Origin: Pseudozobellia thermophila | GTDB lineage: Bacteria > Bacteroidota > Bacteroidia > Flavobacteriales > Flavobacteriaceae | Length of the DNA stretch: 64,000 nucleotides | NCBI RefSeq assembly: GCF_900141855.1 | Contig: NZ_FQYU01000007.1 | Location: forward strand, 62,001-126,000 | Reading direction: 5' to 3' | Part shown: piece by piece, positions 3,805-9,474 of the stretch | Numbering within the stretch: position 1 is the first letter of the stretch | Layout of the letters: every line of letters begins with the position of its first letter | Notes under the pieces: model-generated | Databases searched by the model: none | What the model was told of the DNA's origin: nothing | Seen by the model: only the letters and a program-made list of their open reading frames with translations | Made by a program: the position numbers and the translations under genes

Positions 3805-4467
3805 ATGACTAAAGCCGAAAAGGTTGACTTTACCATAAAGACATTACAGGAGCTTTATCCTGAAATTCCCGTCCCATTGGACCACAAAGATCCCTATACC
3901 CTGTTGATCGCCGTACTTATGTCGGCCCAAAGTACCGATGTCAGGGTCAATCAAATAACCCCCTTGCTCTTTGCCCGGGCCGACAACCCTTACGATATGG
4001 TAAAATTATCGGTCGAGGAAATCCGCGAAATCATAAAGCCCGTTGGGCTATCGCCGATGAAATCGAAGGGTATTCACGGACTTTCAAAAATATTGATCGA
4101 AAAATACGATGGTCAGGTTCCTGCCGACCTCAAATCATTGGAAGAACTTCCTGCCGTAGGCCATAAAACGGCCAGTGTTGTCGTATCGCAGGCATTCGGT
4201 ATTCCCGCATTTCCAGTAGATACGCATATTCATCGTTTGATGTACCGATGGGGATTTTCGAACGGAAAAAATGTGGTACAGACCGAAAAGGATGCCAAAA
4301 GACTGTTCCCTAAAAACCTGTGGAACGACCTGCACCTTCAAATTATTTGGTACGGTCGGGAATATTCGCCGGCTAGGGGGTGGGACTTAGATCGAGATAT
4401 AATTACCAAGACCATAGGAAGAAAAAAAGTGATAGAAGAGTACCTTAAAGCAAAAAAGTCCCGTTAA
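3805..4467 (+). CDS. nth: endonuclease III homologue lacking the Fe-S cluster
   Basis: 220 residues. The helix-hairpin-helix region (LPAVGHKTA) holds the catalytic lysine K121 and the segment FPVDTHIHR holds the catalytic aspartate D139, matching K120 and D138 of E. coli Nth, a DNA glycosylase/AP lyase for oxidised pyrimidines. The usual C-terminal C-X6-C-X2-C-X5-C ligands of the [4Fe-4S] cluster are absent: after GREYSPARGW the chain has no cysteine, and the whole protein has none. The gene is divergent from bcp. Its stop codon lies inside the loop of the terminator hairpin shared with the convergent small gene. Confidence 0.93.
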   Translation: MTKAEKVDFTIKTLQELYPEIPVPLDHKDPYTLLIAVLMSAQSTDVRVNQITPLLFARADNPYDMVKLSVEEIREIIKPVGLSPMKSKGIHGLSKILIEKYDGQVPADLKSLEELPAVGHKTASVVVSQAFGIPAFPVDTHIHRLMYRWGFSNGKNVVQTEKDAKRLFPKNLWNDLHLQIIWYGREYSPARGWDLDRDIITKTIGRKKVIEEYLKAKKSR

Positions 4468-4480
4468 ACAAGGACTTTTT
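4453..4480. terminator. bidirectional terminator overlapping the nth stop codon
   Basis: AAAAAGTCC (4453-4461) pairs with GGACTTTTT (4472-4480); the nth stop codon (4465-4467) is in the loop. It serves nth on the plus strand and the 47-aa gene on the minus strand. Confidence 0.8.
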
Positions 4481-4485
4481 GCTTT

Positions 4486-4629
4486 TTAATTTAAACTGTT
4501 CTCGAATTGAAGCTTTTTATATTCAACCACATGTAACTGCTTGGAGAACCCCAATAAAAATTGGATCGTTTCAGAACTGATTTTTACGATTTCACCTCTT
4601 TCTAGGTTGTCAGAGTAGATTTTTTCCAT
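4486..4629 (-). CDS. 47-aa protein, copy A, downstream of sigma factor A
   Basis: A 48-codon frame starting MEKIYSDNLERG and ending FENSLN, 72 bases behind the sigma-factor gene on the same strand. A second 47-aa protein sits in the same position behind the second sigma gene (5652-5795). The two align end to end without gaps with 20 identical residues, including the starts M-x-K-I-Y-S, the core F-L-L-x-x-S-K and the ends F-E-x-x-L-N. This conservation and equal length support a real gene. No membrane segment or cysteine. Function unknown; a regulator or partner of the sigma factor is a guess from position only. Confidence 0.75.
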   Translation of the reverse strand: MEKIYSDNLERGEIVKISSETIQFLLGFSKQLHVVEYKKLQFENSLN

Positions 4630-4701
4630 AATAGTAGCATAGTTATACTAGGATAACGCAACTACATATGAAATATTGTTATAGGGGTTAAACCCGCCTG
4701 T

Positions 4702-5283
4702 CTAGTTCGTCAAGACGATATTGTTCTTTTCGATGATCTTGCGAAGGTTAATGAGCGCATAGCGCATTCTTCCTAGAGCCGTATTGATGCTAACTCCCGT
4801 ATTTTCAGAGATTTCCTTAAAACTCATATCCCTATAGATCCGCATCACCAAAACTTCTTTTTGGTCATCGGGAAGTTCTTCTACCAAGTGCCTAAGGTCT
4901 GAATTGATCTGATCTTTGATCAATTGCTTTTCCGCATTTAACTTATCGTCGCCGATTACCGAAAAAATATTGAAATCGTCGTTGCCTTCGAACATCGGCA
5001 TCCTTTTGTTCTTTCTAAAATGATCGATGATCAGGTTATGCGCAATACGCATCACCCAAGGTAAAAATTTACCCTCTTCACTATAGGTACCTTTTTTCAA
5101 GGTTCTGATGACCTTGATAAAGGTGTCTTGAAAAATGTCTTCGGTAATGTCCTTATCCAATACCTTTGAATAAATAAAACTCGTAATCCTTTGGTTATGG
5201 CGGTTGATCAGTATCTCCAAGGCTTTTTCATCTCCGGCGATGTAATCTCTTACTAATATTGAGTCTTCGGTCTGTAGGTTCAT
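4702..5283 (-). CDS. sigma-70 family (ECF-type) RNA polymerase sigma factor, copy A
   Basis: 193 residues from the ATG at 5283 (MNLQTEDS...), chosen because homology with copy B begins there; an upstream ATG at 5316 is possible. Region 2 is recognisable by DITEDIFQDTFIKVIRTL and FLPWVMRIAHNLIIDHFRK, and region 4 by LPDDQKEVLVMRIYRDMSF and the helix-turn-helix GVSINTALGRMRYALINL. It should direct RNA polymerase to a specific promoter set. There is no adjacent membrane anti-sigma factor; instead a 47-aa gene follows 72 bases downstream. Copy B at 5870 has the same length and a near-identical C-terminus, so this is a tandem duplication. Confidence 0.92.
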   Translation of the reverse strand: MNLQTEDSILVRDYIAGDEKALEILINRHNQRITSFIYSKVLDKDITEDIFQDTFIKVIRTLKKGTYSEEGKFLPWVMRIAHNLIIDHFRKNKRMPMFEGNDDFNIFSVIGDDKLNAEKQLIKDQINSDLRHLVEELPDDQKEVLVMRIYRDMSFKEISENTGVSINTALGRMRYALINLRKIIEKNNIVLTN

Positions 5284-5651
5284 ACGTGTAGATTTTTTGT
5301 TAAGATTTGAGGTCATTTAGTTAATGTTTCGGATCGTCTTACAAGAGTACCTTTTTAATTCTGACATAAAACTAGAAAGATTGGGTCTCGCAGAAAAAAC
5401 ATTGTTGTCAAACTGCCAGTTTATGATGTGAAAACCTACTTTTTCTGTTTTCAACAAAATAAAACCAGAACATATGCGTTGAAATCGGAAAACCGTTTGA
5501 ATACAAGGCTTTACGCCATAAGCCAGTAGGTAGAAAAGGGACTTATCCATTTTTTTGGCCGCCTATGACGGCCAAGCCCGGCACCATACCCCCAAAAAAA
5601 AGCCCCGGTGTATACACCAGGGCCTTACCTTATTAAAGTTTCTAAACGTAC
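5284..5651. other. gene-free stretch between the two sigma units
   Basis: 368 bases. It holds the terminator of the upstream unit (5594-5623) and presumably the promoter of sigma copy A. A 77-codon minus-strand frame (5317-5550) shows no family resemblance and is not called. Confidence 0.6.
5594..5623 (-). terminator. terminator of sigma B / 47-aa copy B unit
   Basis: On the minus strand GCCCTGGTG pairs with CACCGGGGC (one mismatch) around TATA, followed by eight T. It isolates the second unit from the first. Confidence 0.8.
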
Positions 5652-5795
5652 TTAATTCAAGTTCGATTCAAATTTTATTCCTTCGGCCTCCATAACATCC
5701 AAGGCCTTGGAATAATCCAACAAAAACTTTACCGTTGAATCACTTACCTTATAATTATAGTTCTTACTTTGTTCCGCAGAGTAGATTTTTCCCAT
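5652..5795 (-). CDS. 47-aa protein, copy B, downstream of sigma factor B
   Basis: A 48-codon frame starting MGKIYSAEQSKN and ending FESNLN, 74 bases behind sigma factor B and directly in front of a terminator. It is a gap-free paralogue of the 47-aa protein at 4486-4629 (20 of 47 residues identical). It is predicted soluble, with a mixed charged/hydrophobic second half (VKFLLDYSKALDVMEAEGIK) that could be helical. No known function; its pairing with the sigma gene is the only clue. Confidence 0.75.
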   Translation of the reverse strand: MGKIYSAEQSKNYNYKVSDSTVKFLLDYSKALDVMEAEGIKFESNLN

Positions 5796-5869
5796 ATTTA
5801 TATCAGTATTGTTTCACGATAATAACGCTACCGATATAAATATAATGAATAAGCTCGACCTACCGCCTA

Positions 5870-6451
5870 TTAATTCGTTAAAACAATATTGTTCCGCTCT
5901 ATGATCTTACGAAGGTTGATCAAGGCGTAGCGCATACGTCCCAAGGCCGTGTTTATACTTACCCCGGTATTTTCCGATATTTCCTTAAAACTCATATCCC
6001 TGTAAATACGCATTATCAGTACTTCCTTCTGGTCGGCAGGCAGTTCATTGACCAAGACCCCAAGGTCGGAATCAATTTGGTCTTTTATGATCTGGCGTTC
6101 GACGTTCAACTTGTCATCCCCCATAAGGGAAAAGATATCAAAACTGTCCGCCCCGTTGAACATGGGCATTCGGCTACTTTTTCGATAATGGTCTATAATA
6201 AGGTTATGGGCTATACGCATGACCCAGGGCAAGAACTTGCCTTCTTCGTTGTAAGACCCCTTTCTTAGGGTCTTTATTACCTTAATAAAGGTATCCTGAA
6301 AAATATCTTCGGTAATGTCCCGGCTGTTGACCTTTGAGTAAATAAAACTGCTCAGTCTTTGATTGTGCTTGTCGATCAGTATTTCCAGTGCCTTTTCGTC
6401 ACCGGCAATATATCTTTTTACCAGAAGGGAATCTTCGAGTTGTACATCCAT
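5870..6451 (-). CDS. sigma-70 family (ECF-type) RNA polymerase sigma factor, copy B
   Basis: 193 residues from the ATG at 6451 (MDVQLEDS...); an in-frame ATG at 6490 would add 13 residues not shared with copy A. Region 2 carries DITEDIFQDTFIKVIKTL and FLPWVMRIAHNLIIDHYRK; region 4 carries LPADQKEVLIMRIYRDMSF and GVSINTALGRMRYALINL. From the region-4 helix-turn-helix to the C-terminus it is almost identical to copy A, so both probably recognise the same -35 sequence. The differences cluster in the N-terminal third and the linker. It heads a short transcript with the 47-aa gene. Confidence 0.92.
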   Translation of the reverse strand: MDVQLEDSLLVKRYIAGDEKALEILIDKHNQRLSSFIYSKVNSRDITEDIFQDTFIKVIKTLRKGSYNEEGKFLPWVMRIAHNLIIDHYRKSSRMPMFNGADSFDIFSLMGDDKLNVERQIIKDQIDSDLGVLVNELPADQKEVLIMRIYRDMSFKEISENTGVSINTALGRMRYALINLRKIIERNNIVLTN

Positions 6452-6672
6452 AGCTATTACTTTTTTTTTAAAACCATGCATCCCATCCATGGGAAAGGAG
6501 CCGTAGTCGATCGTTCTAAATTTTAAAAAGTAATTTTTTATGCTATAGGCGTATTAACATTTAGTTAGTATCAAATATAGAAAAAATTAAATGGTTCATA
6601 AAATAATCTTCTATGAGCCATTTTAACCCTTACATACCTAGTATACGATATTATTTTTAATATGGTTCATCG

Positions 6673-6680
6673 TATCTTTG
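6673..6680 (+). promoter_or_regulatory. Bacteroidota -7 promoter element of uvrA
   Basis: TATCTTTG matches TAnnTTTG and ends 16 bases before the uvrA ATG at 6697. Confidence 0.6.
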
Positions 6681-6696
6681 CAAAAGATATTTGAAA

Positions 6697-9474
6697 ATGG
6701 CAGTAGAACTAGAGGTCAATCCAAAGGAGAACATCATTATAAAGGGTGCAAAGTTGCACAATCTCAAGAATATCGATGTTATCATCCCCCGCAATAAACT
6801 CGTGGTAATCACCGGATTATCCGGATCGGGCAAGTCCACCTTGGCCTTCGACACCCTCTACGCCGAGGGGCAGCGCCGGTATGTCGAAAGCCTTTCTTCC
6901 TATGCCCGACAATTTTTGGGAAAACTCGACAAACCCAAGGTCGATTACATAAAGGGCATAGCCCCGGCCATAGCCATCGAACAGAAGGTAAACTCGACCA
7001 ACCCCCGCTCGACGGTCGGGACCACCACCGAGATATACGATTATCTTAAATTGCTTTTTGCCCGTATCGGCAAGACCTATTCCCCTATTTCGGGGAAGGA
7101 GGTAAAAAAAGACTCGGTGACCGATGTGGTTCGCCATGTCAAAACCTATGGTGAGGGCACAAAGCTCTTGTTACTGGCCCCTATAAAAATCGATGAAAAC
7201 CGGGACCCCCTTAAATCGTTGCAGCTACTATCGAAACAAGGCTATGCCCGTATAAAGTACAACGGTGCGGTTTTGCGTATCGATGCCGCGCCGGAAGATA
7301 TCTCCAGGGAATTCGACCTGGTGGTAGACCGTGTTGTCGTAAAAGACGACGAGGATTTCTACCACCGCTTGGCCAATGCCATAGACACGGCGTTCTTTGA
7401 AGGAAAAGGGGCGTGTATCATCGAAGAACTCGAAACAGGTAAACAAACCCGTTTTAGCAACAAATTTGAACTTGATGGCCTATCGTTCTTAGAACCCAAT
7501 GTGCATCTTTTCAGCTTTAACAACCCCTACGGTGCCTGCCCCAATTGTGAGGGATACGGCGATGTAATAGGTATCGATGAAGATTTGGTCGTGCCCAATA
7601 CGGCCCTCTCGGTATACGAGAACGCCATATCGCCCTGGCGGGGCGAAAGTATGGGCTGGTATCGCGACCAGTTGATCAATTCGGCCTATAAATTCGATTT
7701 CCCCATCCATAAACCCTGGTTTGAGCTTTCCGAGGCGCAGCGCCAATTGGTCTGGGAAGGCAACGCGCATTTTATAGGCCTGCACAAGTTCTTTGCCATG
7801 CTCGAGGAAAAAAGCTATAAGATCCAGAACCGGGTAATGCTCTCCCGGTATCGGGGCAAAACCAAATGTAGCCTTTGCAAGGGCAGGCGTCTTCGAAAGG
7901 AAACCGATTATGTAAAGATCGCTGGTAAAAGCATTTCCGATTTGGTGGAATTGCCCATTCAACGGCTTATACCTTTTTTCAAGGACCTCTCGCTCGACCC
8001 GCACGATGAGCAAATAGCTTCCCGTCTTCTTAAGGAAATCAATACCCGACTCGGTTTTTTGTTCAAGGTCGGATTGAGTTATCTGACCCTCAACCGTAAA
8101 TCGAACTCGCTTTCAGGCGGTGAAAGCCAACGCATCAACTTGGCCACTTCATTGGGCAGTAGTTTGGTGGGTAGCATGTATATTCTCGATGAGCCCAGTA
8201 TAGGACTGCATCCGAAAGACACCGAAAACCTCGTCGAGGTCCTAAAATCCCTACGCGACCTTGGCAATACGGTAATTGTGGTAGAACACGATGAGGATAT
8301 TATGAAAGCCGCCGACCAGGTAATCGACATCGGCCCCGAGGCGGGTACCCATGGCGGTGAGGTAGTGGCATGCGGGCCCCTGCCCCAAGTCCTAAAATCC
8401 AAATCCCTGACCGCCAGCTATCTCAATGGCTCCAAGGAAATAGCCGTTCCCAAAAAAAGACGGACATCGCCCAACTATATTGAAATTATCGGTGCAAGGG
8501 AGAACAACCTTAAGAATATTGACGTCAGGTTTCCCTTGAACATGCTTACCGTGGTTACGGGAGTTTCCGGAAGCGGCAAAAGCACCTTGGTCAAAAAACT
8601 GCTCTACCCCATTATCTTAAAGGAAGTAGGAGGTTATGGCGAAAAGGCCGGACAGTTTACCAAGGTCGAGGGCAAGTACAAGTCGATCAAACACGTCGAA
8701 TTCGTCGACCAAAACCCCATTGGCAGGTCGTCGCGTTCCAATCCCGTCACCTACATCAAGGCCTACGACGATATACGAAACCTCTACGCCACACAAAAAT
8801 TGAGCAAGATCAGGGCCTATCAACCCAAGCATTTCTCTTTTAACGTAGATGGGGGGCGATGTGAAAAATGTAAGGGAGAGGGCGAAATTACCGTAGAGAT
8901 GCAGTTTATGGCCGATGTCCATCTGGAATGCGACGCCTGCGGGGGCAAACGGTTTAAAAAGGAAGTATTGGAAGTAAAGTTCAACGATGCCAATATTGAC
9001 GATGTTCTGAACATGACCATCGATGATGCCATAGCCTTTTTCGAAACCCACAAAGAGACCAAGATTACCAACAAGCTAAAACCCTTGCAAGATGTCGGCC
9101 TGGGCTATGTAACCTTGGGGCAATCGTCTTCGACCCTCTCGGGGGGCGAGGCACAGCGCATAAAGCTCGCTTCGTTTCTGGTAAAGGGCGCCACGAAGGA
9201 CAAGGCCCTGTTTATTTTTGACGAGCCTACGACCGGCCTGCATTTTCACGATATAAAAAAGCTCTTAAAGTCTTTTGACGCCCTTATTTCAAAGGGGCAT
9301 TCCGTAGTGGTCATCGAGCACAATATCGAATTGATCAAATGTGCCGATTACATTATCGATCTCGGCCCCGAAGGAGGTGAAAACGGAGGTAATGTATTGG
9401 CTTCGGGCACTCCCGAGGAAATCATAAAATCAGAAGGTTCCTTTACCGCCAAATACCTGGCCGAAAAACTCTGA
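6697..9474 (+). CDS. uvrA: excinuclease ABC subunit A
   Basis: 925 residues from the ATG at 6697 (a TTG two codons upstream is less likely). This is the damage-recognition ATPase of nucleotide excision repair. Walker A of the first ABC half is GLSGSGKST (40-48), with signature LSGGESQR; the second half has GVSGSGKST and LSGGEAQRIKLA. The UvrB-binding region between the first Walker A and the zinc module is present, so it is a UvrA1-type protein. The C-terminal zinc module is complete (CEKCKGEGE ... CDACGGKRF). The N-terminal zinc module keeps CPNCEGYG, but the first CxxC pair normally found upstream of FSFNNP is replaced by SNKFELDGLSF. Single-gene transcript. Confidence 0.96.
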   Translation: MAVELEVNPKENIIIKGAKLHNLKNIDVIIPRNKLVVITGLSGSGKSTLAFDTLYAEGQRRYVESLSSYARQFLGKLDKPKVDYIKGIAPAIAIEQKVNSTNPRSTVGTTTEIYDYLKLLFARIGKTYSPISGKEVKKDSVTDVVRHVKTYGEGTKLLLLAPIKIDENRDPLKSLQLLSKQGYARIKYNGAVLRIDAAPEDISREFDLVVDRVVVKDDEDFYHRLANAIDTAFFEGKGACIIEELETGKQTRFSNKFELDGLSFLEPNVHLFSFNNPYGACPNCEGYGDVIGIDEDLVVPNTALSVYENAISPWRGESMGWYRDQLINSAYKFDFPIHKPWFELSEAQRQLVWEGNAHFIGLHKFFAMLEEKSYKIQNRVMLSRYRGKTKCSLCKGRRLRKETDYVKIAGKSISDLVELPIQRLIPFFKDLSLDPHDEQIASRLLKEINTRLGFLFKVGLSYLTLNRKSNSLSGGESQRINLATSLGSSLVGSMYILDEPSIGLHPKDTENLVEVLKSLRDLGNTVIVVEHDEDIMKAADQVIDIGPEAGTHGGEVVACGPLPQVLKSKSLTASYLNGSKEIAVPKKRRTSPNYIEIIGARENNLKNIDVRFPLNMLTVVTGVSGSGKSTLVKKLLYPIILKEVGGYGEKAGQFTKVEGKYKSIKHVEFVDQNPIGRSSRSNPVTYIKAYDDIRNLYATQKLSKIRAYQPKHFSFNVDGGRCEKCKGEGEITVEMQFMADVHLECDACGGKRFKKEVLEVKFNDANIDDVLNMTIDDAIAFFETHKETKITNKLKPLQDVGLGYVTLGQSSSTLSGGEAQRIKLASFLVKGATKDKALFIFDEPTTGLHFHDIKKLLKSFDALISKGHSVVVIEHNIELIKCADYIIDLGPEGGENGGNVLASGTPEEIIKSEGSFTAKYLAEKL

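Follow-up and report, generated by a model that had tools for sequence, protein, structure and literature searches.

Two tandem ECF sigma factor genes of Pseudozobellia thermophila are each followed by a gene for a 47-residue protein, and this small gene is conserved behind the sigma factor gene across Flavobacteriaceae. The spacer between the two genes carries a predicted ECF-type promoter (CAATA-N15-CGTTA), and the same motif stands directly before sprA. The explanation that we favour, at slightly better than even confidence, is that the small product is a much reduced anti-sigma-like protein: the sigma factor, a SigP-like regulator, would drive its expression through a promoter of its own and in turn be held back by it, so that a negative feedback loop results. 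New here are the spacer promoter, the sprA motif and an 89-residue anti-sigma-like protein that is a probable orthologue of the 47-residue one. If the small protein is indeed the brake of this sigma factor, it offers a direct way to influence how type IX secretion and gliding are controlled. The window is the whole 64,000-nucleotide stretch that was analysed (contig NZ_FQYU01000007.1, positions 62,001 to 126,000).

Organization of the duplicated locus

On the minus strand the order is sigma A, small A, a terminator, sigma B and small B. The upstream sigma factor gene, copy A, occupies positions 5870..6451 (Pfam Sigma70_r2 4.2e-14, r4_2 4.8e-9), and the downstream copy B positions 4702..5283 (2.2e-14 and 1.3e-9). 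Both products have 193 residues with the start codon that homologues use; in-frame ATG codons further upstream would give 206 and 204 residues. The presence of regions 2 and 4 within these 193 residues places both copies among the ECF (group IV) sigma factors, and copy B matches 14 PDB entries, all of them named as sigma factors and mostly of the ECF type. The two sigma factors are 81% identical.

The small genes lie on the same strand at 5652..5795 (small A, profile match E 1.8e-19) and 4486..4629 (small B, E 2.4e-20), with 74 and 72 bases, respectively, between the sigma stop codon and the ATG of the small gene. Their products are 43% identical (20/47 residues). A profile search of the own genome found these two copies only, the third match having an E-value of 1.95. 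The sequence-only reading had described a tandem duplication of a sigma factor gene together with a 47-codon downstream gene, with nearly identical region 4 and 20 of 47 identical residues in the small proteins. Both units were located as described, and the last 56 residues of the two sigma factors were found to differ at three positions.

A separate terminator had also been assigned to each unit. For unit A this was borne out by the terminator scan, which reported a strong intrinsic terminator with a 12-bp stem 3' of small A (5626-5599, minus strand; annotated span 5594..5626). For unit B it is only plausible, because the likely terminator at 4453..4490, a short-stem, long-loop hairpin that small B would have in common with the convergent gene, was found by eye and was not reported by the scan. 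The neighbours, also read by eye, are a divergent uvrA upstream of sigma A, and the convergent nth and then bcp beyond small B. The genes uvrA, nth, bcp, recA and ruvA were named by eye from their translations, sprA by TIGR04189.

The 47-residue frame is a conserved gene

A search with a single 47-residue sequence gave matches in 221 of 299 Flavobacteriaceae genomes. With a profile built from 114 homologues the number rose to 268, including a few weak matches with E-values between 1e-5 and 4e-3. The small gene followed 223 of 225 sigma factor genes in the initial set of loci, which is redundant, and the two misses were at locus ends. After more loci had been added the count was 346/348, many of the added loci having been fetched because the small gene was present; this set contains 297 distinct pairs. 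Homologues in related genomes, which the sequence-only reading had named as a check, are thus present behind the sigma factor gene across the family.

The second check, a synonymous-site bias, gave a similar answer: dN/dS for the small gene had a median of 0.40 across 1672 pairs, which are not independent. Where both genes could be evaluated (158 pairs), the small gene gave 0.31 and the sigma factor gene 0.04. The length is exactly 47 residues in 203 of the 297 distinct small proteins, and the last residue is Asn in all 297, encoded by either of the two Asn codons. The small gene is real and under purifying selection.

No Pfam or NCBIfam family covers the 47-residue protein, and we found no description of it in searches of an open-access library; subscription papers may contain one. 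In three Arenibacter loci (L047, L054 and L086) the upstream small protein has an altered start and hairpin, is 47-50 residues long and ends in EHCLN, retaining the helix and the final Asn. A constraint at the nucleotide level is seen at the fifth codon (5781-5783 in small A and 4615-4617 in small B, minus strand), where Tyr is encoded by TAC in 270 small genes and by TAT in two. Other Tyr codons of the small genes are mostly TAT, and the Tyr codons of the sigma factor genes are TAT in 1188 cases vs TAC in 618.

A predicted promoter in the sigma-small spacer

The pentamer CGTTA occurs in 226 of 287 sigma-small spacers (28/285 expected from shuffling). In 171 spacers it is preceded, 12-18 nt upstream, by CAATA, and in 168 of these the gap is exactly 15 nt (0.5 expected). 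The count was made on 287 of the 297 pairs, long spacers being left out, and spacers of related genomes are not independent. The spacer thus carries a predicted ECF-type promoter, CAATA-N15-CGTTA. Small B has the full match (4654..4678, minus strand; weight-matrix score 26.3), and small A a copy one base off the consensus, CATTA-N15-CGTTA (5823..5847, minus strand; 18.9), the matrix having been trained on such spacers.

Scores of at least 9.4 were reached in 56/56 spacers behind B copies, in 34/41 behind single copies and in 19/54 behind A copies, in 0/151 regions upstream of sigma factor genes on the sense strand (12/151 on the other strand) and in 1/151 regions downstream of the small gene; these figures are partly circular, as the matrix was trained on the spacer sites. 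A search of the own genome with the CAATA-N15-CGTTA pattern gave 19 sites vs 11 for the reversed control. Besides the sites of small B and sprA, some of the matches lie 34-104 bases before envelope-like frames and are not separable from chance. A pattern with the spacing off by one base, which serves as a spacing control, showed no enrichment (125 matches vs 115 for its own control).

RNAalifold predicted a structure for the B spacers only, a 5-bp hairpin without clear covariation, and no consensus structure for the A or single-copy spacers. Pairing of the start codon of the small gene within the spacer was somewhat longer than in shuffled sequences, yet short and varied.

The motif before sprA

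In the own genome CAATA-N15-CGTTA is found at the end of ruvA, directly before sprA (locus L311, around 1500-1530). At a score of at least 9 the motif was also present, in about the same place, in 36 of 40 other genomes; on the reverse strand it was present in 0/41 regions, and among shuffled sequences in 2.8%. The -10 box of the motif overlaps an Ala codon of the ruvA frame. In 30 of the 31 frames that could be read this codon is GCG, compared with 53 of 342 other Ala codons there; nine regions were unreadable by the pattern. GCG was found in 29/29 frames with the motif and in one of two without it. The synonymous sites at the ruvA-end motif are frozen across genomes.

Among sigma-positive genomes 35 of 37 have the motif before sprA and two lack it. 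Three of the genomes compared are sigma-negative: two, of one genus, are without the motif, and the third (G276, 90% complete) keeps it. The secretion gene covered by this comparison is sprA, which has a candidate promoter of this kind before it.

Co-occurrence of the small gene and the sigma factor gene

The sigma factor gene was detected in 285 of the 299 Flavobacteriaceae genomes (threshold E 1e-30). The profile search found the small gene in none of the 14 sigma-less genomes of this family, and 17 of the 285 sigma-bearing genomes were without a detectable small gene. Six of the 14 sigma-less genomes are at least 95% complete; because the two genes are adjacent, an assembly gap could remove both. 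SprA (TIGR04189) is encoded in 294 of the 299 genomes; 11 of the 14 sigma-less genomes are among them. Since the small gene is absent from all 14, 11 of which have SprA, it tracks the sigma factor gene and not the secretion system. Possession of type IX secretion as a strict rule for the presence of the two genes was rejected on the same figures, and in the 299 genomes presence did not follow the secretion system. The pairing is also seen in single-copy genomes, so it is not special to the duplication.

The class-wide profile search found the small gene in 97 out of 296 genomes; 11 of these 97 are Flavobacteriaceae. Of 36 distinct places that were read, 25 have the sigma factor gene upstream of the small gene and 11 do not. 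A sigma factor of 49-63% identity was present in all 28 class-wide genomes checked, including the 11 unlinked cases. Five unlinked small genes (L165, L181, L182, L183 and L185) still adjoin a gene read by eye as nth, as in the window.

The small protein and anti-sigma factors

The AlphaFold2 model of the 47-residue protein consists of one helix (residues 19-31) and a beta hairpin (32-37/40-45), with a mean pLDDT of 79 and a pTM of 0.43. A structure search with this model returned 46 PDB matches with E-values of up to 10, all of them above 0.001. Sequence searches of Pfam, NCBIfam and PDB gave no anti-sigma match for the 47-residue protein.

In one related family we found, in eight of ten genomes, an 89-residue form (L194-L201), similar to the 47-residue protein at its start and end, and its C-terminus aligns to the 47-residue family (hhalign 97.2%, E 3e-11). 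The 89-residue form is probably an orthologue of the 47-residue protein. In the two loci of this form that were read (L183 and L185) the gene adjoins nth, away from the sigma factor gene, which is elsewhere in the genome. Six of the eight members match the NCBIfam model NF052375 ('anti-sigma factor'), with a best E-value of 2.1e-5 and scores far below the cut-off (20 bits for member 1, compared with a cut-off of 100 bits); the model matched 0/10 shuffled sequences. The best PDB match of the 89-residue form is the anti-sigma factor DdvA (E 0.07). Pfam returned no anti-sigma family for it, the best match being DUF2247 (0.0056).

The class I anti-sigma factors with an ASDI domain (RseA, RskA, ChrR, RsiW) are likewise encoded directly behind their ECF sigma factor genes, and the small gene, too, stands beside one. 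By eye the added N-terminal part of the 89-residue form resembles helices 1-3 of a class I anti-sigma domain. After it come a linker and one helix, and set against the ASDI layout as given in the available part of PMC7406223, this helix, shared with the 47-residue protein, sits where helix 4 would. The 47-residue form differs in the absence of helices 1-3, in its C-terminal beta hairpin and in matching no family; its model, one helix and a hairpin, does not contain the ASDI domain of helices 1-3 plus helix 4. Because the 89-residue form combines the shared C-terminal half with an anti-sigma-like N-terminal part, we read the 47-residue protein as a shrunken anti-sigma-like protein, or as a module carried by such proteins.

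A model of a sigma-small read-through fusion (39 rows) had a pTM of 0.48 and gave no usable docking. In a coevolution run on 279 of the 297 pairs the ten strongest couplings between the two proteins had a higher mean than in any of 12 permutations, but three of the 12 had a higher maximum. Among the top 60 couplings, nine joined the helix to sigma region 4 (4.5 expected) and one joined it to region 1.2/2.1 (5.1 expected), although helix 4 of an anti-sigma factor would be expected to contact region 2.

Comparison with known systems

Like the sigma factor studied here, SigP (PGN_0274) of Porphyromonas gingivalis, which works with PorX/PorY, is an ECF sigma factor tied to type IX secretion genes, and ours may be its counterpart. 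SigP drives secretion genes, and in the portion of PMC4800418 drawn on, rSigP bound upstream of ruvA and not of sov; the motif described above is at the end of ruvA, before sprA. The sigP gene is auto-regulated according to the excerpted text of PMC7712824, whereas none of the 151 sigma upstream regions has a sense-strand motif. The same excerpt gives putative downstream anti-sigma coding sequences for four of the six P. gingivalis ECF sigma factors, SigP not being among them.

In Flavobacterium psychrophilum the SM6 promoters are of ECF type and carry a CGT box in the -10 position, and several of them lie before type IX secretion genes; in the part of the paper seen, the authors leave the sigma factor of this class open (PMC9723704). 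The likeness to CAATA-N15-CGTTA comes from the CGT box at -10 and from the type IX secretion targets. EcfO-Reo of Bacteroides/Phocaeicola is likewise an ECF sigma factor with a paired regulator gene. As a counterpart it was set aside, since Reo is described as spanning all five cell compartments and thus the whole envelope (PMC13114119, in part). CsfB of Bacillus subtilis (64 residues) is a very small anti-sigma protein; it differs from the small protein in being a zinc-finger homodimer acting on sporulation sigma factors, as stated in the portion of PMC5890618 used.

Proposed regulatory role of the small protein

In the mechanism that we favour, active sigma factor would fire the CAATA-N15-CGTTA promoter directly behind its own gene, and the small protein, with its helix, beta hairpin and invariant final Asn, would then bind and damp the sigma factor. 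Promoters of the same kind before sprA, the gene of the type IX secretion translocon, would be fired by the same active sigma factor. That this sigma factor reads the motif, that the small protein contacts it and that it corresponds to SigP are steps that we infer; the negative sign of the regulation is proposed because the protein has an anti-sigma likeness and the arrangement suits feedback. The functional pair suggested by the sequence-only reading gains support from the co-occurrence, the old joint duplication, the dedicated promoter and the anti-sigma-like relative, and its proposed nature, a small sigma-binding regulator, would be compatible with these data.

The linkage, the co-occurrence and the promoter would also fit a small protein that acts positively, as a co-activator or adaptor, either by keeping the sigma factor stably bound to RNA polymerase or by connecting it with an activator upstream of it; the loop would then be feed-forward. 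The leaning of the couplings to sigma region 4 agrees with such a role, as does the finding in Porphyromonas that PorX binds SigP and that a porX mutant loses SigP protein (PMC4800418, same portion). The resemblance of the 89-residue form to anti-sigma factors points the other way, and we consider a positive partner unlikely. That relative, and the absence of the small gene from all the sigma-less genomes, most of which have SprA, also speak against a protein that makes no contact with the sigma factor and is no more than one of its conserved targets, with a function elsewhere (e.g. in the secretion machinery) and a nearby location due to the position of its promoter. A promoter of its own, of the kind found before sprA, would be expected of such a target, and at 11 of the 36 class-wide places the sigma factor gene is not beside it; we rate this reading as unlikely too, a shade below the positive partner.

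A transcript that acts mainly as a regulatory RNA, the frame being secondary or of dual use, appears very improbable. The conservation of the fifth codon would suit it, and a putative regulatory RNA of F. psychrophilum, Rfp11, has an ECF-type SM6 promoter (PMC9723704, part seen). The purifying selection on codons, the near-constant length and a C-terminal Asn that is invariant with both codons in use are properties of a protein-coding gene, and structure was predicted by RNAalifold for the B spacers alone. A known RNA family at 4400-6800 was rejected, as the five Rfam matches there were weak (E 0.2-0.99) and none reached the gathering score.

More tentatively, and with less than even confidence, we propose for the whole class that this mini-protein of one helix and a hairpin is the missing anti-sigma factor of an ECF family in command of type IX secretion, expressed from a promoter belonging to its sigma factor. 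Class I anti-sigma genes are found near 6% of Bacteroidetes ECF sigma factors vs 32% over all phyla (PMC7406223, available part). If the proposal is true, it helps to explain the scarcity of apparent anti-sigma genes for the ECF sigma factors of Bacteroidota, and other ECF sigma factors without such a gene may also have partners too small to notice.

Duplication history and upstream control

A tree was made of 87 sigma factors taken from the named loci and the window, leaving out duplicates and rows with too little flank to tell the copy number. In this tree most A copies (20 of 25) and most B copies (20 of 24) form two separate supported sets (all-A set of 20 rows, 98/94; all-B set of 20 rows, 97/84). 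Ten of the 13 single-copy members of the duplicated clade group with three B copies. Branches are longer for the A copies, the B copies evolving more slowly. The duplication is old and common to several genera. The tree suits one old duplication followed by losses of A; a single origin is short of proof because the tree requires three label changes each for A and B and four for single copies.

The A and single copies share an upstream box and leader, and the B copies have a different conserved upstream region. In sigma A the box, TATATTTG (6572..6579, minus strand), was recognised by its conservation upstream of A and single-copy sigma factor genes and is read as a housekeeping-type (Bacteroidota -7) promoter after the TAnnTTTG consensus given in the part of PMC9723704 used. 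The leader of sigma A contains an inverted repeat, with a 5' arm ATTACTTTTT (6525..6534, minus strand) and a 3' arm AAAAAGTAAT (6456..6465, minus strand) directly 5' of the start codon, which could hide the translation start. Leader inverted repeats of at least 9 nt occur in 46/54 A copies, 29/41 single copies and 4/56 B copies, compared with 2/54 shuffled A leaders. RNAalifold gave no consensus structure for the A or single-copy leaders.

Transcription of sigma A would start from the housekeeping-type promoter, and that of sigma B from its separate conserved upstream region at 5355..5433 (minus strand), which comprises TTTCACATCA, GTTTGACAACA and TAGTTTTATGTCAGAATTAA and is conserved over 56 B loci. 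After the duplication, divergence would have affected mainly the upstream control, leaving the promoter-reading regions nearly unchanged. Tandem copies with nearly identical promoter-reading regions but different upstream control amount to a natural experiment in rewiring. Within the copy-B region (5355-5433, minus strand) there are two similar boxes, TTTCACATCA and TTTGACAACA, which are absent from the consensus of the A and single copies.
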